57,680 nucleotides of DNA from assembly GCF_030542965.1 (NCBI RefSeq), contig NZ_JAUAOA010000024.1, forward strand, positions 1 through 57,680, in the 5' to 3' direction. Position 1 is the first letter of the stretch. Each line of letters opens with the position of its first letter. The translations under genes and the position numbers were made by a program. The notes under the pieces were generated by a model that did no database searches, had not been told where the DNA came from, and saw only the letters and a list, made by a program, of their open reading frames with translations. Shown here piece by piece: positions 860 through 19,639 of the stretch. This DNA comes from Azotosporobacter soli. Its GTDB lineage: Bacteria; Bacillota; Negativicutes; SG130.

Positions 860-935
860 GGAAAACAAGTCGAGAAATGAAGAGCGAAGCATAAAAATAT
901 TTCTTCTTCCTATTCTTCGTGTTAAAACTCCCGTC
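860..935. repeat. Intergenic repeat, TTCGTGTTAAAA family (copy 1)
   Basis: An AT-rich spacer with AAAAATATTTCTTCTTCC followed by ATTCTTCGTGTTAAAA. The same arrangement, an A/T run then TCTTCC, a pyrimidine stretch and CGTGTTRAAA, recurs at about 3711-3813 and 29020-29113, with a related palindrome at 44431-44516. Only weak hairpin potential is seen in this copy. Confidence 0.35.
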
Positions 936-999
936 GTTTCCCAACACCAAGTCGAATCAACAACTTTATTACGATAAAAAATCGAAGGAGGCAACAATC

Positions 1000-3657
1000 A
1001 TGAGTGAAAATCAAATTCCAACCGTATACGATCCGAAAGCGGTTGAAGCCAAACTGTATAAGTTTTGGGAAGACAACAAACTGTTCCATGCCGAGGTGGA
1101 AGAAGGCAAGAAACCGTTCAGCATCGTCATTCCGCCGCCCAACGTCACCGGACAGTTGCATATGGGGCATGCGCTCGACAATACGCTGCAGGATATCCTG
1201 ATCCGTTTCCGCCGCATGCAGGGCTACAACACGCTCTGGATGCCGGGTACCGACCATGCGGGCATTGCGACGCAGAACAAGGTCGAGGAAATGCTGGCGA
1301 AGGATGAAGGCAAGAGCCGTCACGATCTGGGGCGGGAAGATTTTGTCGCACGGGTTTGGGACTGGAAGCACCAGTACGGCAGCCGCATTACCGAACAGCT
1401 GAAAGGTCTCGGCGCATCCTGCGACTGGGAACGCGAACGCTTCACGATGGACGAAGGCTGCTCCAAAGCGGTGAAGGAAGTCTTTGTCTCGCTCTATGAA
1501 AAAGGATTGATCTATCAAGGGCATCGCATCACCAACTGGTGTCCGCGCTGCAATACCGCTTTGAGCGACATCGAAGTCGAGCATGAGGAAAAACCGGGCC
1601 ATCTCTACCATGTACGCTATCCGGTAGCGGGCAGCGATACAGAGTCGGTTACGATTGCGACGACGCGTCCGGAAACGATTCTTGGCGATACGGCGGTTGC
1701 GGTTAATCCGGAGGATGCGCGCTACGGCAAACTGGTTGGCAAGGAATTGATCCTGCCGATCGTGGGCCGTCAAATTCCGATCATCGCCGACGACTATGTC
1801 GATGTTGCGTTCGGCACCGGCGCGGTTAAGATCACGCCGGCGCATGACCCGAACGACTTTGAGATGGGCCTGCGTCACGATCTGCCGCAGCTGGTCGTGA
1901 TCGAAAACGACGGCACGATGTCGCCGGACACCGGCAAATATGCCGGGATGGATCGTTATGAGTGCCGCCGTCAATTGGTGAAAGACTTGGAAGACGCCGG
2001 ATACTTGGTTAAAATCGAGGAACATAACCATGCGGTCGGGCATTGCCAGCGCTGCACGACGGTCGTTGAACCGCTGGTGTCGAAGCAATGGTTCGTCAAA
2101 ATGGAATCGTTGGCTAAACCGGCGGTGGAAGCGGTCGATTCGGGGCGCATCCAGTTTGTGCCGGAGCGTTTTACCAAGACCTACACTAACTGGATGGACA
2201 ACATCCGCGACTGGTGCATCTCGCGTCAGCTCTGGTGGGGACATCGCATTCCTGCCTGGTATTGCGAGTGCGGCGAAACGGTCGTAGCGCGCGAAGAGGT
2301 GAAAAGCTGCCCGAAATGCGGCGGCACGCATCTGGAGCAGGACCCGGACGTACTCGATACCTGGTTCAGTTCCGCGCTCTGGCCGTTCTCGACGATGGGC
2401 TGGCCGGAAGAAACGCCGGAGTTGAAACAGTTCTATCCGACGAGCGTATTGGTTACCGGTTACGACATCATTTTCTTCTGGGTCGCCCGGATGATCATGA
2501 TGGGACTGGCCTTCCAAAAAGAAATTCCGTTCCAGCATGTGTTCATTCATGGTCTGGTGCGCGATTCGCAGGGCCGCAAGATGAGCAAATCGCTGGGCAA
2601 CGGCATCGATCCGCTCGAGGTCATTGAACAGTACGGCGCGGATACGCTGCGCTTCACGCTGATCACCGGCAATACGCCGGGCAACGATATGCGCTTTTAC
2701 TGGGAACGGGTCGAGTCGAGCCGCAACTTTGCCAATAAGCTCTGGAACGCGTCGCGTTTCGTGCAGATGAACCTGGAAGGGTTTGACGCAGACTATCGTC
2801 CGGATACGGCGGATTATACGCTGGCCGACCGCTGGATCTTAAGCCGCTATGCGAAGACGGTAAGCGAAGTGACGCGCAATCTGGAACGCTTTGAACTGGG
2901 CGAGGCGGCCAAGGTGCTGTATGAATTCATCTGGAACGAATACTGCGACTGGTACATCGAGCTGGCCAAGGCGCGCCTTTACAACAAGGAAGACGCCAAG
3001 AACCGCGCGACCGCGCAATACGTCCTCTGGTCGATTCTGGAAAATACCTTGAAGTTGCTGCATCCGTTTATGCCGTTCATCACCGAGACGATCTGGCAAC
3101 ATCTGCCGCATGAAGGAGCGAGCATCATGACGGCGCAGTGGCCGTCTGCTACGGCGCAGCTTGCGGATGCAAGCGCCGAGCAGCAGATGGAAGTGATCAT
3201 GGAAACGATCAAAGCGGTGCGCAATATGCGCGCCGAAGTCAATGTTCCGCCGGGCCGCAAGAGCGAACTGCAATTGCTGGTCGGCAGCGCCGAACTGAAA
3301 GCGGTGCTGGAAGCGAACAGCGCTTACTTCCGCACGCTGGCCGCCGCCGAACCGGTGACCTTCCTGGCTGCGGACGCGGCGAAACCGGAAAATGCGATGG
3401 CGGCGGTTGTGACCGGCGTCGAAGCGTTCCTGCCGCTGAAGGGGCTGATCGACGTCGAGAAGGAAAACGCGCGTCTCAACAAGGAACTGGCGGGCTTAGA
3501 AAAAGAATTGGCGCGCATCGCGGGCAAACTGTCGAACGAAGGTTTCGTCGCGAAAGCGCCGCCGGAAGTCATTGAAAAAGAAAGGGCCAAAGCGGCCGAA
3601 TATGAAGAAAAGAAGACCGCCATCCAGGAACGCCTGGTCTATCTGGCAAGTCTGTAA
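1000..3657 (+). CDS. valS: Valyl-tRNA synthetase
   Basis: Class I aminoacyl-tRNA synthetase that charges tRNA-Val in the cytoplasm. The protein is 885 aa, the normal bacterial length. The HIGH-type motif is [15 protein letters not shown] near residues 44-58 and the KMSKS motif is RKMSKSLGN near 525. Between them lies the editing (CP1) insertion with [15 protein letters not shown]-terminal coiled-coil arm (about residues 815-885, rich in K/E) is typical of ValRS. I chose the ATG at 1000 because AAGGAGG lies 9 bases upstream and [16 protein letters not shown] is the usual start; an in-frame codon at 919 would add 27 untypical residues. The gene stands alone between the T-box leader and a strong terminator, so it is a monocistronic unit controlled by tRNA-Val charging. 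Confidence 0.98.
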
Positions 3658-3691
3658 GTCAAAAAGGCGGCCGTAGAGCCGCCTTTTTGAC
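3658..3691 (+). terminator. Intrinsic terminator after valS
   Basis: The stem GTCAAAAAGGCGGC pairs with GCCGCCTTTTTGAC directly after the stop codon. The pairing is symmetrical, so it could also work on the other strand. Confidence 0.9.
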
Positions 3692-3710
3692 TTTGCGAAT
3701 CAACACGTGG

Positions 3711-3813
3711 GGATTCAACACGAAGTGGGGAAGGAAAAAGAAAAGAGGGGGAGAATGTTGCTTTAAAAATATCTTCCCCTCTTCGCTTTTCTTCGCTTTT
3801 TCGTGTTGAAATC
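3711..3813. repeat. Intergenic repeat, long imperfect palindrome (copy 2)
   Basis: GGATTCAACACGAAG at 3711-3725 is nearly complementary to CGTGTTGAAATCC at the right end (about 3801-3813). The purine-rich left arm and pyrimidine-rich right arm can pair over most of about 45 bases. The right part carries AAAAATATCTTCC and TTTTTCGTGTTGAAA, the signature shared with the spacers before valS and after rnfB. Confidence 0.45.
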
Positions 3814-3850
3814 CATCGTTCATTTTTAAATGCAAAATGGAGGCGGCAGC

Positions 3851-5128
3851 ATGAAGTATCAGGAAGCGTTGGATTATTTGGCCGGACTTGGCAAGTTCGG
3901 CATTCATTTGGGGCTGGAGCGGATTTCCGGCTTGCTTACTTTTCTCGATCATCCGGAACGGAAATTCAAATCGATTCATGTGACCGGTACGAACGGCAAA
4001 GGCTCGACCTGCGCGATGCTGGAGGCGATCTTGCGCAGTGCGGGTTTGAAGACCGCGCTATATACGTCGCCGCATCTCGTTTCGTATACGGAGCGGATGG
4101 TATTGGACGGCAGCGACGTCAGCGAAGCGGATTTTGCGCTGGCCATTGCTGCGGCCAAAGCGGCGGTCGAAAAAATGGCGGCAGCGGGTCTTGAGCATCC
4201 GACCGAATTTGAAGTGATCACCGCCGCCGCGTTTTGGCTGTTTGCCGAAAAAAAGGTCGAGTATGCGGTGGTGGAAGTGGGCCTTGGCGGCCTGCTCGAT
4301 TCGACGAACGTGATTGTACCGGAAGTATCGCTGATCACGAACATCTCGCTCGAACACACCGATCGTTGCGGCAGTACGCTGGAGGAAATCGCGGCCGTCA
4401 AGGCAGGCATCATCAAAGAAGGCGTGCCGGTCATCACCGCTGCGCAGCCTCCGGCGCTTGCTGTGATCGAAGAAACGGCGCGCAAAAAGAAAAGCGCGCT
4501 GCAGCGCCTGGGGCAGGAGTTTTGCGTAGCGGGCGTTCTCGCGGCAAAGGGGCAGCAGATTCGCCTCACGCTACATGGCGACGTCTGGCCGGAATTTTCA
4601 ATGGCGCTGCTTGGCCGCAACCAACTCGATAATGCGGCGCTGGCGATGACGGCGGCGGCGCTGCTTGGCGAGCGCGAGCCGCGCATCACGCGCGCTGCGA
4701 TTGCAAGAGGACTGGAGACGGCGTGTTGGCCGGGGCGCTTTGAGCGAATCGCCGGGCGTCCGGAAATTATTATCGACGGCGCGCACAATCCGGCGGGCGC
4801 TGTTTGTTTGCGCGCCAATCTCGATGAACTGGAGCCGCAAAAGCCGCGCGTCTTCTTACTCGGCATTTTGGCGGACAAGGATGTGTCCGGTATTCTCGGC
4901 GCGCTGATCCGACCGGAGGACAGGGTTGTCGTCGTGCCGCCCGCCTCGGAACGCGCTGCGTCGCCGGAGGTGATCGCCGCACAGATCAAGGCGCGCCAGG
5001 TTGTATGCTGCGAAGAAATTTTCCAGGGGCTGGAACAGGCGAAAACGATGGCAGGGCCGGACGAATTGCTGTGTGTGGCGGGTTCGCTGTATTTGGTCGG
5101 TACGGTGCGGAGTTTGCTTGGGTTATAG
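3851..5128 (+). CDS. folC: Folylpolyglutamate synthase / dihydrofolate synthase
   Basis: Adds glutamate to dihydropteroate and to folates (a Mur-ligase-type ATP-dependent amide ligase). The 425-aa protein begins with the characteristic YQEALDYLAGLGKFGIHLGL. It carries the ATP loop VTGTNGKGSTCAML near residue 48 and the conserved IDGAHNPAG near residue 305. I chose the ATG at 3851, which has GGAGGCGG 5-12 bases upstream and gives the family's usual N-terminus; the in-frame ATG at 3830 would place the ribosome-binding site inside the gene. It follows the valS unit, as in many Firmicutes. The following membrane-protein gene has its own promoter. Confidence 0.95.
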   Translation: MKYQEALDYLAGLGKFGIHLGLERISGLLTFLDHPERKFKSIHVTGTNGKGSTCAMLEAILRSAGLKTALYTSPHLVSYTERMVLDGSDVSEADFALAIAAAKAAVEKMAAAGLEHPTEFEVITAAAFWLFAEKKVEYAVVEVGLGGLLDSTNVIVPEVSLITNISLEHTDRCGSTLEEIAAVKAGIIKEGVPVITAAQPPALAVIEETARKKKSALQRLGQEFCVAGVLAAKGQQIRLTLHGDVWPEFSMALLGRNQLDNAALAMTAAALLGEREPRITRAAIARGLETACWPGRFERIAGRPEIIIDGAHNPAGAVCLRANLDELEPQKPRVFLLGILADKDVSGILGALIRPEDRVVVVPPASERAASPEVIAAQIKARQVVCCEEIFQGLEQAKTMAGPDELLCVAGSLYLVGTVRSLLGL

Positions 5129-5154
5129 ACAAAGTCGGCGCTGTCGGCTATAAT
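5126..5154 (+). promoter_or_regulatory. Promoter for the O-antigen-ligase-like gene
   Basis: TAGACA (5126-5131) and a perfect TATAAT (5149-5154) are spaced by 17 bases and overlap the folC stop codon. Confidence 0.65.
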
Positions 5155-5196
5155 TTAGCTGATTTAATATGAGCGTAAGCTGAAACAGGTGAAACG

Positions 5197-6468
5197 ATGA
5201 AACAGTTTAAAACGGATCTGCTGGCCGGGTGGCTGGCAAAGGCAACGCGCTACGGTATTTTTGCCGCGGCATTTTTCCTGCCGCTCTCTTTTGATGCGGC
5301 GAGTTGGTTCCTGAATGTGGCCGCGCTGGCCTGGTTCGGGCGGATGGGACTTGAACGGCGCTGGCTGGTGCAGACTGGACCGTTTGACAAATGGATCTGG
5401 CTGCTGATCGGCTGTTCGTTTATTTCGGTCGGATTTTCGCCGGATCGCGATTTTAGTTTTTATAATTACTACCATTTGATGGGGCGCTACGTCCTCTTCT
5501 ATTATTTGACGCTGAGCAATTTCACTCGGGTCGAAGAGGTACGGCGCATGGCGTTCGTGCTTCTCTCCTCGTCGGCTTTGGTCTGTCTGTACGGGTTTTA
5601 TCAATATTTGGCCGGTTCGATCATGGCGGCCGAGTGGGTGGACCGGGAACAGTTCCCCGAACTTACGATGCGCGTCTTTTCCACGCTGGAAAATCCGAAC
5701 CTGTTAGCGGGCTATCTCGTCAGTTTGGCGTCGCTGACCGGGGGCATGCTGTGGCAGGAGACGGAAAAGCGCACAAGGCTTTTGCTGGCGGCACTTGGAC
5801 TGGCTCAAATCGGCTGTCTGGTACTGACTTATTCGCGCGGCAGCTGGTTGAGTCTGCTGGCGGTGGTCGCTTTGGCAGGCGTCTTGATCAATCGACGGCT
5901 GCTGTGGCTGCTGGCGGTGGTGCCGGTCGCGCTCTTAATCGGGCATGAGGCAGTGCTGGAGCGGATCATGTCGGTGATGAACCCGACGGATACCTCGTCG
6001 ATGCTGCGCCTTGCGCTCTGGGAAAGTACCGTGGCGATGATTCAGGACCATCCGTGGTTCGGCATCGGCTGGGGTTCTTACTGGATGGTTTATCCGGAAT
6101 ATGATTTTTTTATTCAAAATCCTGCGGTGAAAATTTTGCATGCGCATAACATGTATTTGAATTTTGCGGCGGAAATCGGTTTGCCGGGCTTTGTCGCGTT
6201 CATGACGGTGTTGATCGCGCATGGCCGGATGGCTGTACGCAACTGGCGCAAGGCCGGACCAAAAGCGCGGGGCATGTTCCTCGGCATGGCCGCCTCGTTC
6301 GTTGGAATTTTATTGAACGGTTTAACGGATTACGTACTTTTTAATATTCAATTGTCGCTCTTGTATTGGCTGACGCTCGCGCTGATTATCGTCTTGCAGC
6401 GTGCGACTATGGCGCAAGCTGCAAGTGGGGTTGACAGAAAATACCAGGGTGTTTCCGGCAGGAATTAA
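5197..6468 (+). CDS. O-antigen ligase / Wzy_C family polytopic membrane protein
   Basis: A 423-aa integral membrane protein with about ten to twelve hydrophobic segments and a large loop near residues 265-315. That loop contains the Wzy/WaaL-type signature HAHNMYLNFAAEIGLPG (near residue 315) and YSRGSWLSLL (near 211). Family members transfer or polymerise undecaprenyl-linked glycans at the outer face of the inner membrane. In a didermic Firmicute this would fit lipopolysaccharide or another surface glycan. No other glycan genes lie beside it, so the substrate is unknown. The ATG at 5197 has a modest AGGTGA ribosome-binding site. Confidence 0.8.
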   Translation: MKQFKTDLLAGWLAKATRYGIFAAAFFLPLSFDAASWFLNVAALAWFGRMGLERRWLVQTGPFDKWIWLLIGCSFISVGFSPDRDFSFYNYYHLMGRYVLFYYLTLSNFTRVEEVRRMAFVLLSSSALVCLYGFYQYLAGSIMAAEWVDREQFPELTMRVFSTLENPNLLAGYLVSLASLTGGMLWQETEKRTRLLLAALGLAQIGCLVLTYSRGSWLSLLAVVALAGVLINRRLLWLLAVVPVALLIGHEAVLERIMSVMNPTDTSSMLRLALWESTVAMIQDHPWFGIGWGSYWMVYPEYDFFIQNPAVKILHAHNMYLNFAAEIGLPGFVAFMTVLIAHGRMAVRNWRKAGPKARGMFLGMAASFVGILLNGLTDYVLFNIQLSLLYWLTLALIIVLQRATMAQAASGVDRKYQGVSGRN

Positions 6469-6628: not shown

Positions 6629-6985
6629 GTGAATCTGCGCGAGGCAAAAGAGATTGTGAAAGCGGAAATTCTTTGGGGCGACGAGCTGTTGGAACGCGAA
6701 ATCAGGACCGCGTGCGGCGCAGATCTGTTGAGCGATGTGTTGGCGTTTACCAAAGATAAGACGCTGCTTTTGACCGGTTTGACCAATGTCCAGGTCGTAA
6801 AGACGGCGGAAATCAGTGATATGGCCGCAATTGTTTTTGTCCGCGGCAAATATCCGGCCACCGAACTGGTTGAATTAGCCAAAGAGCGCCAGGTGCCGCT
6901 TTTGGTCACGTCGCTTTCGATGTTTGAATCCTGCGGCCGATTGCACGCAGCCGGCCTGCGCGGCAGTGGCGGTGAAGAGTTATGA
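6629..6985 (+). CDS. DRTGG-domain protein (first of two)
   Basis: A 118-aa single-domain protein related to the DRTGG domains found in phosphotransacetylase and in CBS/HPr-kinase-like proteins. Visible features are LLLTGLTNVQVVKTAEI near residues 47-63 and VPLLVTSLSMFESCGRLHAAGL near the end. I chose GTG at 6629, with GAGGGGG 8 bases upstream; the ATG at 6575 has no ribosome-binding site and overlaps the Rex-like operator. It is the first gene of the hydrogenase operon and overlaps the next start by ATGA. A second, diverged copy lies at 8763. The molecular role is not established; it presumably binds a ligand or nucleotide in hydrogenase signalling. Confidence 0.8.
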   Translation: MNLREAKEIVKAEILWGDELLEREIRTACGADLLSDVLAFTKDKTLLLTGLTNVQVVKTAEISDMAAIVFVRGKYPATELVELAKERQVPLLVTSLSMFESCGRLHAAGLRGSGGEEL

Positions 6986-7413
6986 GCGTGGAGCAACCTG
7001 CTCTGGCGATGGAGTTCCACCTGACCGCCGGTGACTTTAACGGCGCAGGAGATGCGTCAGGCAAGATCAAGCGTACCTTGCAGCAGGTCGGCGTGAAGGC
7101 TGAGGTGATTAGGCGCATCGCGATCAGCGCCTACGAGGCCGAAATGAATGTGATCATTCATTCGCTGGGCGGTGATATCCGGGCCAAGGTATACCCGGAT
7201 CGAACCGAGATCGAGGTCAAGGATTCCGGGCCGGGCATCGCCGATGTCGATCAGGCGATGCAGGAAGGCTATTCGACGGCGCCGGATCATATCCGAGAGA
7301 TGGGGTTTGGCGCGGGTATGGGATTGCCGAATATGTCCCGCTGCGCAGACCGGTTCAGCATCGAATCGAAAGTCGGCGAAGGAACGACGCTGCGCATCAT
7401 CATCAACCACTGA
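6982..7413 (+). CDS. RsbW-like GHKL ATPase (anti-sigma/serine-kinase fold)
   Basis: A 143-aa soluble protein with the Bergerat ATP-binding fold. It has the N box AYEAEMNVIIHS (near residues 50-61), the G1 box DSGPGIAD (near 76) and the G2 region GFGAGMGLPNMSRCADRF (near 110-127). There is no phosphoacceptor histidine domain. The fold is that of RsbW/SpoIIAB serine kinases, but no anti-anti-sigma or sigma gene is adjacent. It lies between a DRTGG protein and the sensory-type hydrogenase, so I infer a role in relaying the hydrogenase signal. Translationally coupled to the upstream gene by ATGA. Confidence 0.85.
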   Translation: MSVEQPALAMEFHLTAGDFNGAGDASGKIKRTLQQVGVKAEVIRRIAISAYEAEMNVIIHSLGGDIRAKVYPDRTEIEVKDSGPGIADVDQAMQEGYSTAPDHIREMGFGAGMGLPNMSRCADRFSIESKVGEGTTLRIIINH

Positions 7414-7435
7414 GCCAAGAGAGGTGGGAAGCGGC

Positions 7436-8836
7436 ATGATCGAATATTTTCACTCTGTGCGTTTGATTTCCGAGCGCTGCAAAGGTTGCGTCAGCTGCAT
7501 CAAGCGCTGCCCGACGGAGGCGATACGCATTCGCGGCGGCAAGGCGAAGATCACGGAATCGCGCTGCATCGACTGCGGCGAATGCATCCGCTATTGTCCG
7601 AACCGGGCTAAAACCGCAGTTACCGATTCGCTGGCGGATATCAAACGCTATCCGCATAATGTGGCGTTGCCCGCGCCGTCATTATATTCACAATTTGAGG
7701 CGCAGGTGACGGTTGATGCAATTCTTTGCGGTTTGTTGTCGCTTGGCTTTGACGAGGTCTTTGACGTCGCGGTGGGCGCGGAGGTTGTTACGACGGCGAT
7801 TCGTGAACTGTTGCAGCATAAGCAGGTAAAGCGCCCGCTCATCTCATCGGCCTGTCCGGCGGTCGTACGGCTGATTCAGGTGAAGTTTCCTGAATTGATC
7901 GATCATCTAGTGCCGTTTGAGGCGCCGGTTGAGATTGCGGCGCGTATGGTGCGCGAGGAGTATGCGCGCCGCACGGGAAGGCCGCAGGACGAGTTGGGCG
8001 TGTGGTTCATTACGCCGTGTCCGGCCAAGCTGACCGCGATTCGTCAGCCGCTCGGCGATCTGCCGTCGAATATCAGCGGCGCGATATCGATTGCCGACAT
8101 TTTCGGCGAATTACGCCGGGTGATTCTGCAAAAACCGGCCGCGGTTGCTAAGTGCAGACGGGCGTCCTGGGCTGGAATGGGCTGGGCGGTGGCCGGCGGC
8201 GAGACAGAGGCGGCCGGCGTCTTGAATACGCTGGTAGTGCATGAAATTCACAGCATCAGCAACGTGCTGGAGCAAGTGGCGATGGGGAAATTGAAGGATA
8301 TCGATTATGTGGAGGCGTTGGCTTGCGCCGGCGGCTGCATCGGCGGGCCGCTGATGGTGGAAAATCGCTTTGTTGCCGAACACCGGATGCGCAATCGACT
8401 GGCTGTCGGAAAACGGTTGCAGCCGCAGCCGGAATTGCCGCTTGCGCCGGAGGATTTGGTGCAGCGCGGTACGCTTGAACCGAGGCCGATTATGCGCTTG
8501 GATGAGGATATTTCAAAGGCTTTGTACAAGGTGGAACAAATGGAGCGGACGCTGGAGCGTTTGCCGGGGCTTGATTGCGGTTCGTGTGGTTCGCCGACCT
8601 GCAAGGCGTTGGCGGAAGACATTGTACAGGGGCAAGCCAGCGAGATGGACTGCATCTTCAAATTGCGCGAGCGCGTGCATGAATTGGCGAAAGAAATGAT
8701 GGGGCTGGCGGAAAAATTGCCGCCATCGCTGGATAAGAAAGAAAAAAAGGGAGCGATAAGGGATGGTAAGAGTAAGAGAGTTGCCGGAACTTCTGGCCGC
8801 CGCGGCGGTAGCGACGATTCCGGAGGAGGCGCTTGA
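7436..8836 (+). CDS. Sensory-type [FeFe]-hydrogenase-like protein with C-terminal Fe-S domain
   Basis: A 466-aa protein. An N-terminal 2[4Fe-4S] ferredoxin domain uses C15/C18/C21/C25 and C44/C47/C50/C54. A hydrogenase H-cluster domain keeps C140, C195, C297 and C301. A C-terminal Fes-type cluster motif is LDCGSCGSPTC near residue 380. The L1 motif reads SSACPAV, not TSCCPGW: A139 replaces the proton-relay cysteine and the tryptophan is absent, as expected for putative H2 sensors (HydS-like, group C/D). The ATG at 7436 has GAGAGGTGGGA upstream. The last 24 codons overlap the next gene by 74 bases and encode a low-complexity G/S/R tail. They follow A AAA AAG at 8743-8749, so the true C-terminus may differ. 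Confidence 0.82.
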   Translation: MIEYFHSVRLISERCKGCVSCIKRCPTEAIRIRGGKAKITESRCIDCGECIRYCPNRAKTAVTDSLADIKRYPHNVALPAPSLYSQFEAQVTVDAILCGLLSLGFDEVFDVAVGAEVVTTAIRELLQHKQVKRPLISSACPAVVRLIQVKFPELIDHLVPFEAPVEIAARMVREEYARRTGRPQDELGVWFITPCPAKLTAIRQPLGDLPSNISGAISIADIFGELRRVILQKPAAVAKCRRASWAGMGWAVAGGETEAAGVLNTLVVHEIHSISNVLEQVAMGKLKDIDYVEALACAGGCIGGPLMVENRFVAEHRMRNRLAVGKRLQPQPELPLAPEDLVQRGTLEPRPIMRLDEDISKALYKVEQMERTLERLPGLDCGSCGSPTCKALAEDIVQGQASEMDCIFKLRERVHELAKEMMGLAEKLPPSLDKKEKKGAIRDGKSKRVAGTSGRRGGSDDSGGGA

Positions 8837-9113
8837 GGTGACGTTGTCTAGCGGTTATGCATCGGATTTATTGAGTAATGTGATGGGACAGGCGAAAGCC
8901 GAAGGGGTATGGGTGACGATGCAGGGGCATCAGAATGTGGTAGCGGTTGCTGTTTTGGCGGGACTGGGGGCGGTTGTCGTCGCGGGCGGCACAAAACCGG
9001 ACGGCGATGCGGTACGTAAAGCGGGGCAGGAGGGGTTGCCTCTTTTTACGACAGAATTATCCGCATTTGAAACGGTAGGACGTCTCTACCGCGCGGGAGT
9101 GGTGGGCGCGTGA
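8763..9113 (+). CDS. DRTGG-domain protein (second of two)
   Basis: A 116-aa single-domain DRTGG-type protein, similar in layout to the product of 6629-6985. It shares the ASDLLSNVMG segment (compare GADLLSDVLA in the first copy), a central hydrophobic beta strand and a C-terminal FTTELSAFETVGRLYRAGV. The GGGAG at 8749-8753 gives a fair ribosome-binding site for the ATG at 8763. It is in the +1 frame relative to the upstream hydrogenase-like gene, whose annotated reading frame overlaps it by 74 bases. Ligand and role unknown; the two copies may form a heteromeric pair. Confidence 0.78.
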   Translation: MVRVRELPELLAAAAVATIPEEALEVTLSSGYASDLLSNVMGQAKAEGVWVTMQGHQNVVAVAVLAGLGAVVVAGGTKPDGDAVRKAGQEGLPLFTTELSAFETVGRLYRAGVVGA

Positions 9114-9880
9114 TGCGCTCTTATGTGGCGGACCTCCATGTGCATACATTGCTCTCACCTTGTGCGGAAGTTGAAATGACGCCGCGCAACATCATTGAGC
9201 AAGCGCTGGAGATTGGCGTCGATATTGTGGCGATCACCGATCACAATGCCGGCGACAATATTATCGCTGCAGAGCGGGCGGCCGAAGGAACGGGAATTTT
9301 AGTCATTCCCGGCATGGAAGTGGAGACAAGGGAAGAGGTCCACTTTATTGCGCTTTTTGAGTCGCTTGCGGTTTACGCTGAATGGCAGCGTTTTGTAGAT
9401 CTTCATATTACAGAGCTGGTCAATGATGAAGACGCGTTTGGCGGACAGTTTGTCGTTGACCATGAAGATAACCTGGTAGAGGTCAAAGAGGTCATGCTTT
9501 TAGCTTCACTGCATTGCTCACTGGCGGAAGCCACGGCGGAAGTGAAGCGTTTGGGCGGCGTGGCGATTGCAAGCCATGTTGATCGTCCATCCTACAGCGT
9601 CATCAGCCAGTTGGGATTTGTTCCCGCTGATGTAACCCTGGCGGCGGTAGAAGTTTCGCGGCGCTGCCAGGATAAAGGGGCTCAAAACCGAATAAGGGAA
9701 GCGACCGGTCTGCCGCTGGTTACGGCTTCGGATGCACATACCATTGGTGATTTCATCAATGGACCGAAAACGGTGCTGCATTTGGAAGCGGCCAGTCTGA
9801 GCGAAGTGAAACTGGCGCTCAGTGGTTCAGGGGGCAGGCATATCGGCGAGTTTCTCTATGCTCCAGAGACTACAAGATGA
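9113..9880 (+). CDS. PHP-domain metal-dependent phosphoesterase
   Basis: A 255-aa PHP-superfamily protein. Metal-binding motifs visible are DLHVHTLLSPC near residues 7-17, ITDHNAGDN near 43-51, SHVDRPSYS near 160 and SDAHTIGDF near 204. Relatives hydrolyse phosphate esters or nucleotides. The start overlaps the DRTGG stop codon (TGATG), so the two are coupled. PHP proteins of this type recur next to NuoE/NuoF/HydA hydrogenase genes; the natural substrate is not known. It lies between the regulatory and catalytic halves of the operon, which suggests it removes a phosphate-containing signal. Confidence 0.85.
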   Translation: MRSYVADLHVHTLLSPCAEVEMTPRNIIEQALEIGVDIVAITDHNAGDNIIAAERAAEGTGILVIPGMEVETREEVHFIALFESLAVYAEWQRFVDLHITELVNDEDAFGGQFVVDHEDNLVEVKEVMLLASLHCSLAEATAEVKRLGGVAIASHVDRPSYSVISQLGFVPADVTLAAVEVSRRCQDKGAQNRIREATGLPLVTASDAHTIGDFINGPKTVLHLEAASLSEVKLALSGSGGRHIGEFLYAPETTR

Positions 9881-9886
9881 GGAGGA

Positions 9887-10384
9887 ATGAAATTGAGCAA
9901 GCAACATGAATGCTGCGGCGGCAACCAGGCAAATCAATTTATCGAATTGAAAGAAGTCCTGGAAAAGTACCGGAATGTGAAGGGGGCTTTGATCCCCATT
10001 TTGCAGGACACGCAAAACCTCTATGGTTATCTGTCCAAAGAAGTATTGGAACACATTGCGGTTCAGATTGATATTCCCATTAGCCATATTTATGGCGTAG
10101 TCACGTTTTATTCCCAATTTCACTTGAATCCGCGCGGTCGCAACATTATCCGCGTCTGTCAGGGGACGGCCTGCCATGTGCGGGGCGCCAAAGCGATCTT
10201 GAAAACGTTGGAAGATCAACTGCATATTGTAGCGGGAACTACGACTGAGGATTTGCGCTTTACGTTGGAGACGGTGGCCTGCATCGGCGCCTGTGGATTG
10301 GCGCCGGTACTGATGGTCAATGACGATACGCATGGCCGCTTGACGCCAGAGAGCATCCCGGCGATTCTGGCTCGCTATTCCTAA
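9887..10384 (+). CDS. hydC: NuoE-like [2Fe-2S] subunit of trimeric hydrogenase
   Basis: A 165-aa thioredoxin-fold [2Fe-2S] subunit (NuoE/HndA/HydC family) that carries electrons in a NAD-linked hydrogenase. The four cluster cysteines lie in CQGTACHVRG (near residues 92-97) and CIGACG (near 133-137). The GGAGGAATG ribosome-binding site gives the start at 9887. The N-terminus has an extra CCGG stretch. With the NuoF-like and HydA-like genes downstream it completes the HydABC core of a soluble, probably electron-bifurcating [FeFe]-hydrogenase using NADH and ferredoxin. Confidence 0.93.
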   Translation: MKLSKQHECCGGNQANQFIELKEVLEKYRNVKGALIPILQDTQNLYGYLSKEVLEHIAVQIDIPISHIYGVVTFYSQFHLNPRGRNIIRVCQGTACHVRGAKAILKTLEDQLHIVAGTTTEDLRFTLETVACIGACGLAPVLMVNDDTHGRLTPESIPAILARYS

Positions 10385-10390
10385 GCTGAA

Positions 10391-10954
10391 ATGCGAGAGT
10401 TGTCGCTCCATATCTTAGATTTGGTACAAAATGCAGTAGAGGCTGAGGCTACCAAGGTGATGCTGGAAGTCGTAGAAGATCTTAGCGCCGATACTCTGAT
10501 CATCCGGGTGCGCGACAATGGGCGCGGCATGGAAAAGCAAGAATGCAGCAAGGTTGTCGATCCGTTTCATACGAGTCGCACGACGCGCCGCATTGGCTTG
10601 GGGCTGCCGCTGATTCAAATGTCGACGCAGCGTTGCGAAGGGCATTTAAAAATTGAATCCGAGATGGGAAAAGGCACGCTGATTGAAGCGCTTTATCGGC
10701 ATAGTCATTGGGACAGGCCGCCGCTTGGCAACATGGCGGACACCTTGCAAACGATTCTGGTGGGCAATCCGATGCTTGATTTTCATTATCTGCATCGCGT
10801 GGACGAGCGGAGTTTTAGCATTGCGGCGTCGGAAATCAATGAGATACTGGGCGGCGTGCCACTGACGCAGCCTGAAATCCTGCAATGGCTGCAGGGCTAC
10901 TTGAAGGAAAATTTGGCGATACTGTACGGAGGTGTAGAGAATGAAGAGTCTTGA
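10391..10954 (+). CDS. GHKL ATP-binding protein (histidine-kinase ATPase domain only)
   Basis: A 187-aa protein whose first two thirds is an HATPase_c domain: N box HILDLVQNAVEAEA near residues 7-20, G1 DNGRGM near 42-47 and G2 GLGLPLIQM near 69-77. A C-terminal segment of about 70 aa has no recognisable match. There is no H-box, so it is not a complete histidine kinase. Homologues sit between NuoE-like and thioredoxin-like ferredoxin genes in many clostridial hydrogenase operons. It may be a regulatory kinase for the complex; the target is unknown. It overlaps the next gene by 14 bases. Confidence 0.83.
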   Translation: MRELSLHILDLVQNAVEAEATKVMLEVVEDLSADTLIIRVRDNGRGMEKQECSKVVDPFHTSRTTRRIGLGLPLIQMSTQRCEGHLKIESEMGKGTLIEALYRHSHWDRPPLGNMADTLQTILVGNPMLDFHYLHRVDERSFSIAASEINEILGGVPLTQPEILQWLQGYLKENLAILYGGVENEES

Positions 10955-11306
10955 AGATTTAAAACGGCTGCAGCAACAAGTGAAAGCAAAGACTAGTTTG
11001 CGTCATGCCGCGGGCACACAGGTGATCGTCGGTATGGGGACTTGCGGCATTGCGGCGGGCGCCAGAGAAGTGATGAGTGCGATCCTGAACGAAATAGCCA
11101 AGCGGAATCTGGAAGACGTTACGGTGCGGCAAACGGGTTGCATCGGCATGTGTGAAAAGGAAGTACTGGTCGATGTGGTGCGCGTAGGGCAGCCACGTAT
11201 CACGTACGGACGCGTCACGGCGGAGAATGTGCCGACGATCGTTGCCGAACATGTGGTTAATGGGCGCATTGTAGAAGAATTGGTCGTAGCCAAGATCGAA
11301 GAATAG
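10941..11306 (+). CDS. Thioredoxin-like [2Fe-2S] ferredoxin (HndB-like)
   Basis: A 121-aa protein of the thioredoxin-like [2Fe-2S] ferredoxin family. It has GTCGIAAGAREV near residues 33-44 and GCIGMCEKEV near 67-76, with the cluster cysteines in C-x4-like and CxxxC arrangement. In the NADP-reducing hydrogenase of Desulfovibrio the corresponding subunit is HndB. It probably shuttles electrons to or from the NuoF-like subunit encoded next. The start lies inside the preceding ATPase gene, with GGAGG at 10929-10933, giving tight coupling. Confidence 0.87.
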   Translation: MKSLEDLKRLQQQVKAKTSLRHAAGTQVIVGMGTCGIAAGAREVMSAILNEIAKRNLEDVTVRQTGCIGMCEKEVLVDVVRVGQPRITYGRVTAENVPTIVAEHVVNGRIVEELVVAKIEE

Positions 11307-11324: not shown

Positions 11325-13115
11325 ATGGAACATATTAGAGCGCATGTACTGATTTGTGCCGGTACGGGTTGTATCTCATCGGGGTCGAAACGCGTACAGG
11401 CGGCCCTGGAAAAACAACTGGCCGAGCTCGGTCTGGATAAGGAAGTCAAAGTGGTTGAGACGGGCTGTCACGGCTTTTGCGAGATGGGACCGCTTGTCAT
11501 CATCTATCCGGAAGGAGTCTTTTATGTCCGGGTGCAGGAAGAGGATGTCAAAGACATTGTCGAGCAACATCTCTATAAAGGTCGTGTCGTAGAACGACTT
11601 TTATACAAAGAACCGATGTCCATGGAGCGGATTCCCAAATACAGCGACATTGATTTTTACAAGAAACAGATGCGCCTGGTGCTGGCGAACTGCGGACATA
11701 TCGATCCGGAAATATTGGAAGAATACATTGCGGTCGGCGGCTATCAGGCGCTTGGCAAAGCACTGACCGACATGACGCCGGAAACGGTTATCGCCGAAAT
11801 GAAGACGTCCGGGCTGCGCGGCCGGGGCGGCGGCGGTTTTCCGAGCGGCATGAAATGGGAGTTCACAGCGAAGGCGAAAGGCGATAAGAAATATGTCGTC
11901 TGTAACGCCGACGAAGGAGATCCCGGCGCGTTCATGGACCGCAGCGTGCTGGAGGGCGATCCACATCGCGTCATCGAGGGCATGGCGATTTGCGGTTATG
12001 CGATCGGCGCGGATGAGGGCTACGTTTATGTGCGGGCTGAATATCCGCTGGCGATCAAACGGCTGCGCATCGCGATCAAGCAGGCGGAAGAAATGGGACT
12101 CTTGGGCGATGGCATTCTGGGCAGTTCGTTCAACTTCCATATCAAGATCAAAGAAGGCGCAGGCGCTTTTGTCTGCGGCGAAGAGACGGCGCTCCTCGCT
12201 TCGATCGAAGGCCGACGCGGTATGCCTCGTCCACGGCCTCCTTTCCCGGCGATCTCGGGTCTCTGGGGAAAACCGACGAATATCAATAATGTCGAGACCT
12301 TTGCCAATGTGCCGCAAATCATCAGCCAAGGCGGCGAGTGGTATGCCTCGATCGGTACCGAACGCAGCAAGGGGACCAAGGTCTTCGCGCTGACCGGGCG
12401 GATTAACCATACCGGACTGGCCGAAGTGCCGATGGGCATCACGATGCGGGAAATCATCTTTGATATCGGCGGCGGCATTCAAAATGGCAAGAAGTTTAAG
12501 GCTGTGCAGATTGGCGGACCGTCCGGCGGCTGTCTGCCGGAAGAACTTCTGGATTTGTCGGTCGATTATGATTCGCTGATCCAGGCCGGCGCGATGATGG
12601 GCTCAGGCGGCTTGGTCGTCATGGACGAAACGACCTGTATGGTTGACGTTGCGAAGTTCTTCCTGACATTCACCACGTCGGAATCCTGCGGCAAATGCAC
12701 GCCCTGCCGCGAAGGAACGAAACGGATGCTTGAGATCCTGGAGCGGATCACGAAAGGCGAAGGCCGAATTGACGATATCGCGCTGCTCGAAGAAATGGCC
12801 AAGAACATCAAGGCGTCTTCGCTCTGCGGTCTTGGTCAGACGGCGCCGAATCCGGTGCTTAGTACACTGAAATACTTCCGGCATGAATATGAGGCGCATA
12901 TCCATGATAAGCGTTGTCCGGCCGGCGCTTGCGCCGATCTGGCCAGTTATCAGGTTACGGAGGCCTGCAAAGGCTGTGGCTTATGTAAGAAAGCTTGTCC
13001 GGTGGATGCCATCAGCGGCGAATTGAAAGGCCTGCACGTGATCGATCAGGATGTCTGCATACGTTGCGGCGCTTGCTTGGCGAAGTGTCCTTTCAAGGCG
13101 ATTATAAAAGGATAG
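11325..13115 (+). CDS. hydB: NuoF-like NAD(P)H-binding flavin subunit of trimeric hydrogenase
   Basis: A 596-aa flavoprotein. An N-terminal thioredoxin-like [2Fe-2S] domain (about residues 1-90) is followed by the NuoF core with the NADH/FMN loop GRGGGGFPSGMKWEF near 166. The 4Fe-4S motif ESCGKCTPCREG lies near 450. A C-terminal 2[4Fe-4S] ferredoxin domain has CKGCGLCKKACP and CIRCGACLAKCP. The architecture equals Thermotoga HydB and HndC. It should oxidise or reduce NAD(P)H and, in bifurcating enzymes, hosts the flavin that splits electrons between ferredoxin and the H-cluster. It lies between the HndB-like gene and hydA. Confidence 0.95.
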   Translation: MEHIRAHVLICAGTGCISSGSKRVQAALEKQLAELGLDKEVKVVETGCHGFCEMGPLVIIYPEGVFYVRVQEEDVKDIVEQHLYKGRVVERLLYKEPMSMERIPKYSDIDFYKKQMRLVLANCGHIDPEILEEYIAVGGYQALGKALTDMTPETVIAEMKTSGLRGRGGGGFPSGMKWEFTAKAKGDKKYVVCNADEGDPGAFMDRSVLEGDPHRVIEGMAICGYAIGADEGYVYVRAEYPLAIKRLRIAIKQAEEMGLLGDGILGSSFNFHIKIKEGAGAFVCGEETALLASIEGRRGMPRPRPPFPAISGLWGKPTNINNVETFANVPQIISQGGEWYASIGTERSKGTKVFALTGRINHTGLAEVPMGITMREIIFDIGGGIQNGKKFKAVQIGGPSGGCLPEELLDLSVDYDSLIQAGAMMGSGGLVVMDETTCMVDVAKFFLTFTTSESCGKCTPCREGTKRMLEILERITKGEGRIDDIALLEEMAKNIKASSLCGLGQTAPNPVLSTLKYFRHEYEAHIHDKRCPAGACADLASYQVTEACKGCGLCKKACPVDAISGELKGLHVIDQDVCIRCGACLAKCPFKAIIKG

Positions 13116-13149: not shown

Positions 13150-14874
13150 ATGGATATGGTTAATGTAACGGTTGACGGTCGCAAGATCCAGGTGCCGCAA
13201 GGAACAAGCGTCTTGTATGCGGCACGGACGGCCGGTGTCGATATTCCAACGCTGTGTCATCATCCGGAATTGCGTCCGGAAGGAAATTGCCGGGTCTGTC
13301 TGGTCGAGGTAGAGGGCGTGCGCAATTTGCCGGCTTCCTGCGTCTATCCGGTCAATGAAGGCATGGTCATTCATACGAATAGTCCGGCAGTGCGCGATGC
13401 ACGCAAGATGGTGGTGGAACTGCTGCTGGCCAATCATCCGCAGGACTGCCTGTCCTGCCAGCGCAGCATGAACTGTGAATTGCAGACCATTGCCGCCGAT
13501 CTTGGGATTCGTAAGGTGCGCTTTGACGGCGAACGCAAGCAACATCCGCTCGATGAGGCGAATCCGTCGATTGTTAGGGATCAAAGCAAATGCATCCTCT
13601 GTGGACGCTGTATACGGGCCTGTAGTGAACGGCAAGGCGTGCACGTCTATTCCTTCGCGAAACGCGGTTTTAACGCCACGGTGGTGCCTGCGTTCAACCA
13701 GGGGCTGCATCAGGTTGCCTGTACTTATTGCGGACAGTGCGCAGCCGTCTGCCCGACCGCTGCGATTGTGGTCAAAGATGATACGCAACCGATCTGGCAA
13801 GTGCTTGGCGATCCGAAGAAACATGTTGTCGTGCAGACTGCGCCCGCGGTCCGTGTTGCGCTCGGCGAAGCGCTCGGTATGGAAGTCGGGAACGTCGTGA
13901 CCGGAAAAATGGTCGCGGCGCTGAGACGACTCGGCTTTGACAAGGTGTTTGACACCGACTTCTCGGCCGATCTGACGATCATGGAAGAAGGTACCGAACT
14001 GCTTGGCCGCCTGAAAGGCAAAGGAAAGCTGCCGATGATCACTTCATGCAGTCCGGGCTGGGTCAATTACGCTGAGCTGCTCTATCCGGATCTGTTAGAT
14101 CATTTGTCTACCGCCAAATCGCCGCAGCAAATGTTCGGCGCACTGGTCAAGACGTATTATGCGGAAAAGAGCAAGATCGATCCGAAAGATATCGTTTCCG
14201 TCTCGATTATGCCGTGTACGGCGAAGAAGGCGGAAGCTGTAAGGGAAGAAATGAAATCGAGCGGCTATCAGGATGTTGATTTTGTCCTGACGACCGGCGA
14301 ACTGGGCCGCATGATCAAAGAAGCCGGGATTGATTTTGAAAAATTGCCGGAAGAGGAATATGACGCTCCGATGGGCATCAGTACCGGTGCGGGCGTGATC
14401 TTCGGCGCAACCGGCGGCGTTATGGAAGCGGCGCTGCGTACCGTTTATGAAGTCGTGACCGGACAAGAGCTGGAGTGTGTCGACTTTAAATCGGTGCGTG
14501 GTCTGGACGGCTTGAAAGAGGCAACGGTCCAGGTCGGCGACACCGCGGTCAAGGTGGCGGTCGCGCATACGCTGGCGAATGCAAAGCTGATGATGGATAA
14601 GGTACGCGCAGGCGAAGCCGATTATCACTTCATTGAGATCATGGCTTGTCCAGGCGGCTGCATCGGCGGCGGCGGCCAACCGGTGACCAGCTGCGAGAAC
14701 TTCCGGCAACGTCGCATCGACGCGATTTATGGCTGCGACAGCTGTTCGACGCTACGCAAGTCGCATGAAAATCCGGCCATCAAGGAGCTGTATGCAACCT
14801 GGCTTGGCGAGCCGAATGGCGAAAAAGCGCATAAACTCCTGCATACGCATTATCATCCGCAAAACAGGGGATAA
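13150..14874 (+). CDS. hydA: Catalytic [FeFe]-hydrogenase subunit
   Basis: A 574-aa group A-type hydrogenase. It has an N-terminal plant-type [2Fe-2S] domain (about residues 1-75), a His-Cys3 cluster motif HPQDCLSCQRSMNC near 97-110 and a 2[4Fe-4S] ferredoxin domain (CILCGRCIRAC, CTYCGQCAAVC). The H-cluster domain has L1 TSCSPGW (C300, S301), L2 MPCTAKK (C356) and L3 MACPGGCIGGGGQP (C500, C504). A C-terminal small-subunit-like tail follows. It makes or consumes H2. L1 has Ser where CpI has its second Cys; I recall TSCSP as a variant of multimeric enzymes but cannot check that here. Last gene before a strong terminator. Confidence 0.95.
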   Translation: MDMVNVTVDGRKIQVPQGTSVLYAARTAGVDIPTLCHHPELRPEGNCRVCLVEVEGVRNLPASCVYPVNEGMVIHTNSPAVRDARKMVVELLLANHPQDCLSCQRSMNCELQTIAADLGIRKVRFDGERKQHPLDEANPSIVRDQSKCILCGRCIRACSERQGVHVYSFAKRGFNATVVPAFNQGLHQVACTYCGQCAAVCPTAAIVVKDDTQPIWQVLGDPKKHVVVQTAPAVRVALGEALGMEVGNVVTGKMVAALRRLGFDKVFDTDFSADLTIMEEGTELLGRLKGKGKLPMITSCSPGWVNYAELLYPDLLDHLSTAKSPQQMFGALVKTYYAEKSKIDPKDIVSVSIMPCTAKKAEAVREEMKSSGYQDVDFVLTTGELGRMIKEAGIDFEKLPEEEYDAPMGISTGAGVIFGATGGVMEAALRTVYEVVTGQELECVDFKSVRGLDGLKEATVQVGDTAVKVAVAHTLANAKLMMDKVRAGEADYHFIEIMACPGGCIGGGGQPVTSCENFRQRRIDAIYGCDSCSTLRKSHENPAIKELYATWLGEPNGEKAHKLLHTHYHPQNRG

Positions 14875-14912: not shown

Positions 14913-15302
14913 AATCCCGCTTGCCGGAAGTCGGTTGCGCTTACTTTAGTTACGCAATACTGAAAAGAATTATGCTAAACAGGGTTTAGCGCCGTCCATG
15001 CGTAAATAGTAAAGCATCACCAGTACAACGATGGGAAAATCAAAGTCGAATAAACGCGAATGATGGCGGAATGAAAAAGTTTTTGGAAAAAAAGCAAAGG
15101 GGTTGAAAACGGGAGCATAAACGATATTATTCCAAAAATTAAGTATATTTAGAATATGTATACAGACTTTTCTTTGCTTTTTTCGTGTTTGTAGGCAGGA
15201 TTTTTTCGTTTATGTGAGAATTTGTACTTACTGTTGGGGATATGAAGTTGTGTTGCTTGTGTGTTTTCTTCTTGGCAGGAAGAACGCGAAGGAGGTTGTC
15301 TG
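14913..15302. other. Gene-free 390-bp spacer between hydA and rex
   Basis: AT-rich, with no plausible small gene or RNA recognised. A TTTGCTTTTTTCGTGTTTG segment at about 15173-15191 resembles the end of the intergenic repeats at 3711-3813 and elsewhere. Promoter-like A/T hexamers occur around 15140-15160, but no confident -35/-10 pair or Rex operator was found. Any autoregulatory site of rex remains unidentified. Confidence 0.35.
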
Positions 15303-15947
15303 GTGAAAGAGAATATTGTGATATCAAAGGCAACGATTGATCGCCTTCCCATTTACTTCCGCACGCTTCGGTTGGTGCAGGAGGAGGGGCTTGAGATCAT
15401 CTCGTCCGAAGAGTTGGGCCAGCGTCTTGGGGTGACGCCGGAACAAATCCGTAAGGACTTGGCATCTTTTGGTCAGTTTGGGAAAAAAGGCGTGGGGTAT
15501 TTTGTGCGCGAATTAATCCGGAATATTGGGGAAATTCTGGGACTGCACTGCAATTGGAATGTTGCGGTGATCGGCCTGGGGCACTTAGGTTGGGCTCTGG
15601 CTCATTATCGTAATTTCGATTCCCTCGGGTTCAATTTGGTAGCCATGTTTGATGTTGACCCTGCGAAAGTGGGGCAAGTCATAAAGGGAACCACTATCTC
15701 CCATTTGGATCAATTGGAAGAGGTGATGCGCGAAAGAAATATCCATATCGGAATCATTACCGTACCGGAGATCCATGCTCAATCGGTAGCAGATCGCATG
15801 GTCGCTGCCGGCGTACGCGGCATTTGGAATTTTGCGCCGCGTAAAATTAAGGTGCCTGCCACTGTACGAGTCATCAACGAAGACTTGTCGGTAGGGCTAA
15901 GCAGTCTTTCTTTTTATTTAGCCAGACAGACACCGGTAAATCCATAA
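15303..15947 (+). CDS. rex: Redox-sensing transcriptional repressor Rex
   Basis: A 214-aa NADH-sensing repressor. The N-terminal winged helix (about residues 1-80) contains ISSEELGQRLGVTPEQIRKDL and FGQFGKKGVGY. The Rossmann domain has VIGLGHLGWAL near 87-97 (GxGxxG; usually GxGNLG, here GLGHLG), FDVDPAKVG and NFAPRKI. The C-terminal helix swaps between subunits in known Rex structures. GTG at 15303 is preferred: AAGGAGG is 7 bases upstream and the family starts here. High NADH releases Rex from DNA. It lies between the hydrogenase and propionate operons and 22 bases before the CoA-transferase gene, so it may be cotranscribed with the propionate genes. Confidence 0.95.
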   Translation: MKENIVISKATIDRLPIYFRTLRLVQEEGLEIISSEELGQRLGVTPEQIRKDLASFGQFGKKGVGYFVRELIRNIGEILGLHCNWNVAVIGLGHLGWALAHYRNFDSLGFNLVAMFDVDPAKVGQVIKGTTISHLDQLEEVMRERNIHIGIITVPEIHAQSVADRMVAAGVRGIWNFAPRKIKVPATVRVINEDLSVGLSSLSFYLARQTPVNP

Positions 15948-17475: not shown

Positions 17476-17502
17476 GTGTAAGTGAAGGAGGACTTTAAAT
17501 CC

Positions 17503-19149: not shown

Positions 19150-19168
19150 AGCGGTAGGAGGGACTACG

Positions 19169-19561
19169 ATGGAAAAACGTGTTCGTATATTAGTTGCAAA
19201 ACCTGGCCTGGACGGCCATGATCGTGGCGCGAAGGTTGTTGCCCGCGCTCTGCGTGACGCTGGCTTTGAGGTTATCTATACCGGCCTGCGTCAGACTCCG
19301 GAACAAATTGCCGAAGCGGCGCTGCAAGAAGACGTAAATGTTGTTGCACTGAGCCTGCTTTCCGGCGCGCATCCGCATCTGTTCCCGCGCATTGTGGAAC
19401 TGGTTCGCGGCAAAGGCATGAAAGATGTGCTGATCATCGGCGGCGGCGTAATTCCTGACAGCGATATCCCGGCTCTCAAAGCAGCCGGCGTATCCGAAGT
19501 CTTCACGCCGGGTACCCCGACCGGAGCCATCATCGAGTACATCAAGAAAAACGTACAATAA
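19169..19561 (+). CDS. Methylmalonyl-CoA mutase, cobalamin-binding (small) subunit
   Basis: A 130-aa Rossmann-like B12-binding domain. It has the base-off/His-on motif [10 protein letters not shown] near residues 14-23 (DxHxxG), then [10 protein letters not shown] and IGGGVIP. It supplies the cobalamin for the preceding barrel subunit. The ATG at 19169 follows GGAGGG. The same layout of separate catalytic and B12 subunits occurs in archaea and several Firmicutes. A strong hairpin (19590-19611) follows. Confidence 0.96.
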
Positions 19562-19589
19562 ACTGACCGAGCAAAGCGTGTCATTGTGC

Positions 19590-19611
19590 GGTCCGGCCAT
19601 CTGGCCGGACC
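19590..19611 (+). other. Perfect 9-bp stem-loop between mutase and meaB genes
   Basis: GGTCCGGCC-ATCT-GGCCGGACC, flanked by GC bases that extend the helix with a bulge. There is no T run, so it is unlikely to be an efficient terminator. It may be an mRNA-stability or processing element within the operon. Confidence 0.6.
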
Positions 19612-19639
19612 CGCAATTGCATAAGGTGGTGCAGTCAAC

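Follow-up and report, generated by a model that had tools for sequence, protein, structure and literature searches.

A putative sensory [FeFe]-hydrogenase and its conserved neighbours as a candidate redox signalling unit with an exchangeable sensor

A stretch of 57,680 nucleotides (nt) from Azotosporobacter soli (contig NZ_JAUAOA010000024.1), called the window below, carries six closely spaced genes amid those of a HydABC hydrogenase. They encode two DRTGG-domain proteins (DRTGG-1 and DRTGG-2), an RsbW/SpoIIAB-like GHKL ATPase (named RsW here), a putative sensory [FeFe]-hydrogenase (HydS), a predicted PHP-domain phosphoesterase and a stand-alone GHKL ATPase (named HAT2 here). On balance, the six proteins probably form one signalling unit whose sensor can be exchanged. 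An earlier note on this stretch had proposed a circuit in which redox or H2 state controls a kinase and a phosphoesterase that act on the hydrogenase or on a nucleotide signal. The regulatory unit that it saw, in which kinase-like ATPases and a PHP protein are coupled to a putative sensory hydrogenase, is supported by co-occurrence and gene fusions. The circuit itself agrees with the gene architecture, but its tie to HydABC was drawn too narrowly. Because the unit also accompanies formate dehydrogenase or Rnf genes, occurs without an A6 (NADH-linked) HydA and can carry a CBS-domain pair instead of HydS, H2 is only one likely input. The idea is therefore widened here to a redox signalling unit with exchangeable inputs, a reading supported by the architecture of the loci.

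The genes were followed in a sample of 249 genomes of the phylum. This type of HydS was found in 92 genomes, RsW in 98, PHP in 92 and HAT2 in 99, and all four occurred together in 86, with pairwise phi values of 0.89-0.93 from counts uncorrected for phylogeny. The RsW family matches were bimodal, at either at least 167 bits or at most 70 bits, and hence cleanly separated. The earlier note had named independent occurrence of these genes in other genomes as an outcome that would speak against it; in the genomes sampled they travel together. Gene order was compared in 94 loci with sufficient flanking sequence. RsW lies directly 5' of HydS in 91 of the 94 loci, DRTGG-1 is found 5' in 75 and DRTGG-2 3' in 81, and PHP and HAT2 are present in 70 and 77 loci, respectively. 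Thus, the arrangement is not due to chance and recurs in most of the loci.

In the window, all parts that had been named beforehand were recovered by Pfam and NCBIfam matches. The Pfam score of DRTGG-2 is just below its cut-off, and the assignment is backed by 101 aligned relatives. The expected tight coupling was read directly from the sequence: from DRTGG-1 to HydD, neighbouring genes overlap in four places, by 4, 74, 4 and 14 nt, and are 22, 6 and 6 nt apart at the other three junctions. Two other statements of the earlier note had to be corrected. The stretch from 6629 to 10954 is not free of catalytic subunits, as HydC, a subunit of the catalytic complex, falls inside it, and a DNA-binding regulator is not missing, as a gene for the repressor Rex follows hydA on the same strand.

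Four types of natural gene fusion were found, all of them in gene order. DRTGG-1 is joined to RsW in proteins of about 270 amino acids (seven sampled loci, and 18 genomes within one order), RsW is joined to HydS in Fermentithermobacillaceae (about 600 amino acids), HydS is joined to DRTGG-2 in two loci (L129 and L132), and PHP is joined to HAT2 in five loci (L099, L100, L101, L105 and L115; about 425 amino acids). Such fusions usually indicate direct contact or a common pathway. They connect DRTGG-1, RsW, HydS and DRTGG-2 as one chain, and PHP and HAT2 as another.

HydS is replaced in some lineages. Three loci (L160, L162 and L163) read DRTGG1-RsW-DRTGG2-PHP-HAT2 and lack HydS, and a fourth, L161, has DRTGG1-RsW next to Rnf. 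RsW of each of the four bears two CBS domains at its N-terminus, and group D HydS was not found in these genomes. CBS-RsW and HydS are both present at locus L118, and in two spirochaete genomes (L193, L194) one locus carries DRTGG1-RsW-HydS or RsW-HydS, whereas CBS-RsW-DRTGG-PHP is found at a second one. The CBS-bearing forms are scattered over several places in the RsW tree. CBS pairs are typical adenylate-binding domains that commonly bind adenine nucleotides, and the pair fused to RsW probably serves as the input in these other lineages. Of all observations, this replacement hints most strongly that HydS is an input module and not a pathway enzyme.

The neighbouring enzyme is exchanged as well. 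A full HydA is encoded near the module in 53 of the 94 loci, 12 of them also with Rnf. Eleven other loci have a formate dehydrogenase with HydB/HydC as the neighbour, and three more have Rnf. The formate dehydrogenase alpha subunits score 908-911 bits to TIGR01591 (cut-off 666), and in both that were checked an in-frame TGA is read through, as expected for selenocysteine. Three sampled genomes with the module (G028, G173 and G223) gave no A6 HydA match; conversely, about 91 sampled genomes have an A6 HydA without HydS, both figures being manual counts. Because of the formate dehydrogenase and Rnf neighbours and the genomes without A6 HydA, the module goes with NADH/ferredoxin-coupling enzymes and not with HydABC alone. 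The order hydC-HAT2-hydD-hydB-hydA recurs in A6 NADH-linked HydABC operons, and HAT2 also lies within a hydC-HAT2-hydB-hydA operon elsewhere in four spirochaete genomes, whereas the signalling unit stands also beside formate dehydrogenase or Rnf, or alone.

In HydS itself, a pair of N-terminal 4Fe-4S motifs precedes the H-domain and a CX2CX4CX16C motif is found at the C-terminal end; Pfam detected no PAS domain. The H-cluster cysteines C140, C195, C297 and C301 are kept in 100% of 118 HydS sequences, and the cysteines 381/384/389/406 of the C-terminal motif in 99-100%. Matched to CpI numbering by motif and not by structure, the window HydS has A139 at the position of the proton-relay residue Cys299, T193 at Met353 and L295 at Met497, three positions that set TamHydS apart from ordinary hydrogenases. 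Across the family, position 139 is Ala or Ser, position 193 is Thr or Ser, and position 295 varies (Gln 49%, Leu 32%). Because of these motifs, the lack of PAS and substitutions like those of TamHydS, HydS is assigned by its sequence features to group D (M2e) as a putative sensory hydrogenase. TamHydS of Thermoanaerobacter mathranii (PMC8163306, PMC13104023) shares the two 4Fe-4S motifs, the H-domain, the CX2CX4CX16C motif and the absence of PAS, as well as a replaced Cys299 (Ala in the window HydS), a hydroxyl residue at the Met353 position and Leu at Met497, and it is also encoded 5' of a bifurcating hydrogenase.

That group D HydS goes with kinases and bifurcating hydrogenases has already been published. 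HydS-type proteins of this group were described as usually encoded upstream of bifurcating hydrogenases and near kinases (PMC3561251, which lists Cthe_0335 of Clostridium thermocellum in group D), and a later paper records the same placement for TamHydS and poses as a question how the signal passes onward (PMC8163306). The near-perfect co-occurrence, the four fusions, the exchange for CBS, the formate dehydrogenase and Rnf neighbours, the occurrence without A6 HydA and the upstream enrichment of Rex-like sites described below are new here; in the consulted passages of the TamHydS literature (PMC8163306, PMC13104023), the whole module, the fusions and the CBS exchange are undescribed. The literature searched contained no pairing of DRTGG with a sensory [FeFe]-hydrogenase, of RsbW with an [FeFe]-hydrogenase or of DRTGG with RsbW. 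One published link of DRTGG with a hydrogenase was set aside, as it concerns an unrelated AAA-DRTGG protein.

Group C sensory hydrogenases (HfsB/HfsC and Ruminococcus albus HydS; PMC11837493, PMC6776011) have the same type of sensor domain beside or fused to signalling proteins and are co-transcribed with hydrogenases. They differ in having PAS and a histidine kinase or Ser/Thr phosphatase, whereas the module has an RsbW-like ATPase, DRTGG and PHP, and no PAS. HydS relatives in the sampled loci are also fused to a PAS-histidine kinase or to a chemoreceptor domain with CheW near. Group C-type HydS-PAS-HisKA-HATPase genes lie a few kb from the group D module on the minus strand of L129 (13472-15772; domains by Pfam) and L132 (13643-15979). 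In L133 (6937-8847, minus strand; domains by Pfam) and L128 (7034-8947, minus strand), a HydS-like domain and a methyl-accepting chemotaxis signalling domain occur in one chain, and in L133 a CheW gene adjoins the group D RsW-HydS pair. This HydS-like/chemotaxis fusion is a possible H2 or redox chemoreceptor.

RsW resembles the RsbW/SpoIIAB kinases in predicted fold and motifs, yet it stays below the curated family cut-offs, with 57.5 bits (E 1e-15) to the anti-sigma F model TIGR01925 (cut-off 135) and 19.4 and 17.3 bits to RsbW models (cut-offs 145 and 155). E52 and N56 of the ExxxN N-box and the residues D81, G83 and G85 are invariant in 112 sequences, and the ATP boxes are all kept. AlphaFold models of the natural fusions were confident within domains, with a predicted local distance difference test (pLDDT) of 91.9 and a predicted template modelling score (pTM) of 0.78 for DRTGG1-RsW, and 90.9 and 0.79 for RsW-HydS. 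The closest solved structures to RsW are those of SpoIIAB, a few of which have sigma F or SpoIIAA bound; the RsW half of the predicted DRTGG1-RsW fusion aligned to SpoIIAB with Z 18.4 and a root mean square deviation of 1.9 over 132 residues.

This likeness and the intact boxes would suit a true anti-sigma factor that, like SpoIIAB, holds a sigma factor, with the DRTGG proteins as anti-anti-sigma factors and a transcriptional output. We consider such a role unlikely, since RsW does not reach the anti-sigma F or RsbW cut-offs and neither sigma factors nor STAS proteins are among the 25 commonest Pfam families in the 96 flanking genes to which the scan was confined. The module also differs from the partner-switching systems in its recurrent members, which include DRTGG and PHP but neither a STAS antagonist, nor a PP2C phosphatase, nor a sigma factor.

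In the DRTGG proteins an Asp-x-x-Ser motif is common to both, with D32 in 99% and S35 in 100% of 88 relatives of DRTGG-1, and D35 and S38 in 99% of 101 relatives of DRTGG-2. The DRTGG half of the predicted fusion matched AF1212 (Z 17.7), the CBS-DRTGG pyrophosphatase (Z ~14) and the N-domains of HPr kinase (Z ~10). Matches of the DRTGG profile to designed 'Pizza' proteins in the PDB were judged spurious. In PHP, the residues H10, H12, D44, H45, E70, H78, H156, D208 and H210, of metal-ligand type, are kept in 98-100% of 85 relatives, making up a complete HxH, DH, E, H, H, DxH metal-binding set. HAT2 retains its ATP boxes with Asp for Glu in the N-box (D10 in 99% and N14 in 100% of 91 relatives). 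As stated in the earlier note, it has no HisKA phospho-acceptor domain, only HATPase_c-type domains being found by Pfam in its 187 amino acids. Judged from the alignments, the catalytic residues of RsW, PHP and HAT2 are intact.

The same proteins could instead make or degrade a small nucleotide signal, with PHP hydrolysing a nucleotide bound by DRTGG or CBS and RsW and HAT2 setting its level with ATP. PHP relatives include nucleoside bisphosphatases, CBS can act as an input, and the CBS-DRTGG regions of the pyrophosphatases, which presumably bind adenine nucleotides, were solved as ligand complexes (3l31, 3l2b). However, no nucleotide synthetase is among the conserved genes and the closest PHP models are far under their cut-offs, and we regard this explanation as improbable. 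That the genes encode assembly, maturation or chaperone factors for HydS or HydABC, with the GHKL ATPases and PHP as housekeeping proteins, is quite unlikely: the tight operon structure, the position of HAT2 between hydC and hydD in many hydABC operons and its presence in four genomes that lack the other three would fit, but many genomes with A6 HydA do without HydS and some with the module do without A6 HydA, CBS-RsW stands in for HydS, and outputs of the histidine kinase and chemoreceptor kinds occur in one chain with HydS-like domains.

The favoured reading is that the six proteins work as one cytoplasmic redox signalling unit. HydS would be the sensor: the state of its H-cluster and Fe-S clusters would depend on H2 and reducing pressure, and RsW and the DRTGG proteins would receive a change of state through direct contact. 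The likeliest action of RsW would then be to phosphorylate a serine of a partner, with the invariant Asp-x-x-Ser motif of the DRTGG proteins as the best candidate site; this step is tentative and less certain than the unit as such. PHP, paired with HAT2, may reverse or read the phosphoserine mark. As output, the neighbouring enzymes (HydABC, formate dehydrogenase with HydB/HydC, or Rnf) would most likely be controlled post-translationally, on top of transcriptional control by Rex.

Several observations weigh against such a unit, besides the uncorrected counts given above. PHP is missing in the Fermentithermobacillaceae genomes, and three loci (L082, L083 and L154) have HydS without an adjoining RsW. 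Because some lineages lack PHP, or RsW beside HydS, the full circuit is not obligatory. Four genomes carry HAT2 without HydS, RsW and PHP. No STAS chain was among the structural matches listed for the DRTGG half, which were DRTGG proteins and HPr kinase N-domains, so that the STAS fold of the known RsbW substrates was not seen there. Finally, biochemistry or genetics of the parts other than HydS was not found in the literature searched.

Rex genes and Rex-like operators plausibly add a transcriptional layer. In 23 of the 94 loci a Rex gene is found no more than about 9 kb from the module, and Rex is reported to repress the bifurcating hydrogenase of Caldicellulosiruptor bescii (PMC8579813). 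The palindrome GCGTGAAAGTTCTCACAA 5' of DRTGG-1 is the sole site in the window with at most three mismatches to TTGTGAA-N4-TTCACAA, and with 3.1 such sites expected by chance per window it is weak alone; no site of the TTGTTAA type was found in the window. Rex-like palindromes occur within 150 nt 5' of DRTGG-1 in 20 of 87 loci, compared with a mean of 4.0 and a maximum of 16 for 260 permuted half-site motifs, and with 64 of 641 other gene starts in the same loci (P 9e-4). Promoter and terminator scans yielded no more than chance.

Table 1. Coordinates and supporting matches of the module, its hydrogenase genes and formate dehydrogenase counterparts; positions refer to the window unless a locus is given
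Feature	Position	Strand	Support or remark
DRTGG-1	6629..6985	+	GTG start; Pfam DRTGG 4.4e-8
RsW, RsbW/SpoIIAB-like GHKL ATPase, probable serine kinase by sequence	6982..7413	+	HATPase_c_2 8.9e-11
HydS, group D (M2e-like) [FeFe]-hydrogenase, putative sensor	7436..8836	+	Fe_hyd_lg_C 5e-33, two Fer4, C-terminal FeS domain 5e-13
DRTGG-2	8763..9113	+	Pfam DRTGG 1.8e-5; 74-nt overlap with hydS
PHP-domain phosphoesterase (predicted)	9110..9880	+	Pfam PHP 1.6e-9
HydC, NuoE-like [2Fe-2S] subunit of catalytic complex	9887..10384	+	Pfam 2Fe-2S_thioredx 1.6e-54
HAT2, stand-alone GHKL ATPase without phospho-acceptor domain	10391..10954	+	HATPase_c 6.5e-16
HydD, small [2Fe-2S] ferredoxin-like protein	10941..11306	+	NCBIfam fdxn_Clost 7e-12 (under cut-off); gene order
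HydB, NuoF-like subunit	11325..13115	+	Open reading frame; family matches across loci
HydA, catalytic [FeFe]-hydrogenase, NADH-linked type	13150..14874	+	NCBIfam NF040763 920 bits vs cut-off 765
Rex redox-sensing repressor	15261..15947	+	NCBIfam PRK05472 models, E 4e-81; 386 nt past hydA
Rex-operator-like palindrome GCGTGAAAGTTCTCACAA	6573..6590	+	5' of module; three mismatches
Formate dehydrogenase alpha in place of HydA, beside module and HydB/HydC	L114:1925-4606	-	One in-frame TGA, probable selenocysteine, RLUHAP
Formate dehydrogenase alpha in place of HydA, beside module and HydB/HydC	L119:14907-17585	+	Nine further loci alike

The surroundings of the module were also recorded. On its 5' side are valS and folC (window 919-6468), as in many relatives. 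A SPOR-domain gene is often there too (12 of the 96 flanking genes), and this layout suggests an old chromosomal position. 3' of Rex (window 15970-20590), the open reading frame translations indicate CoA-transferase-like, methylmalonyl-CoA mutase-like and MeaB-like genes, a set that would fit a propionate or succinate pathway. A gene of the RseC/MucC family adjoins the module at L065:12122-12577 and in five other loci (6 of the 96 flanking genes scanned). Among the variant layouts, L082, L083, L153 and L154 have HydS with only DRTGG-2 and hydDCBA genes, no RsW adjoining, and a second HydS locus in the same genomes. Reduced forms without HydS or PHP occur at L164, L165 and L166, either as DRTGG-RsW-DRTGG-HAT2 or as DRTGG-RsW alone, with Rex and an RnfC-like gene near. 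In the spirochaete loci L043-L060, DRTGG1-RsW-HydS lies 3' of dnaX-like, ybaB and recR genes and 5' of an MGH1-like glycoside hydrolase gene, and a hydrogenase operon is not nearby.

From the fusions and the CBS exchange, the RsbW-like ATPase and the DRTGG proteins can be named as the immediate partners, and the natural single-chain proteins offer test material. It is possible, though doubtful, that the module represents an undescribed class of signal transduction, in which an RsbW-type kinase would act on DRTGG and not on STAS proteins, PHP and not PP2C would reverse the mark, and exchangeable inputs, an H-cluster hydrogenase for H2 or redox state and CBS for energy charge, would directly control HydABC, formate dehydrogenase or Rnf. 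Through the unit, the cell can probably adjust its hydrogen, formate and electron-transfer enzymes. If so, anaerobes that make or use H2 and formate would have in common a circuit that controls their central electron-coupling enzymes according to redox and energy state, which would be relevant to rumen H2, acetogenesis and biofuel yield.

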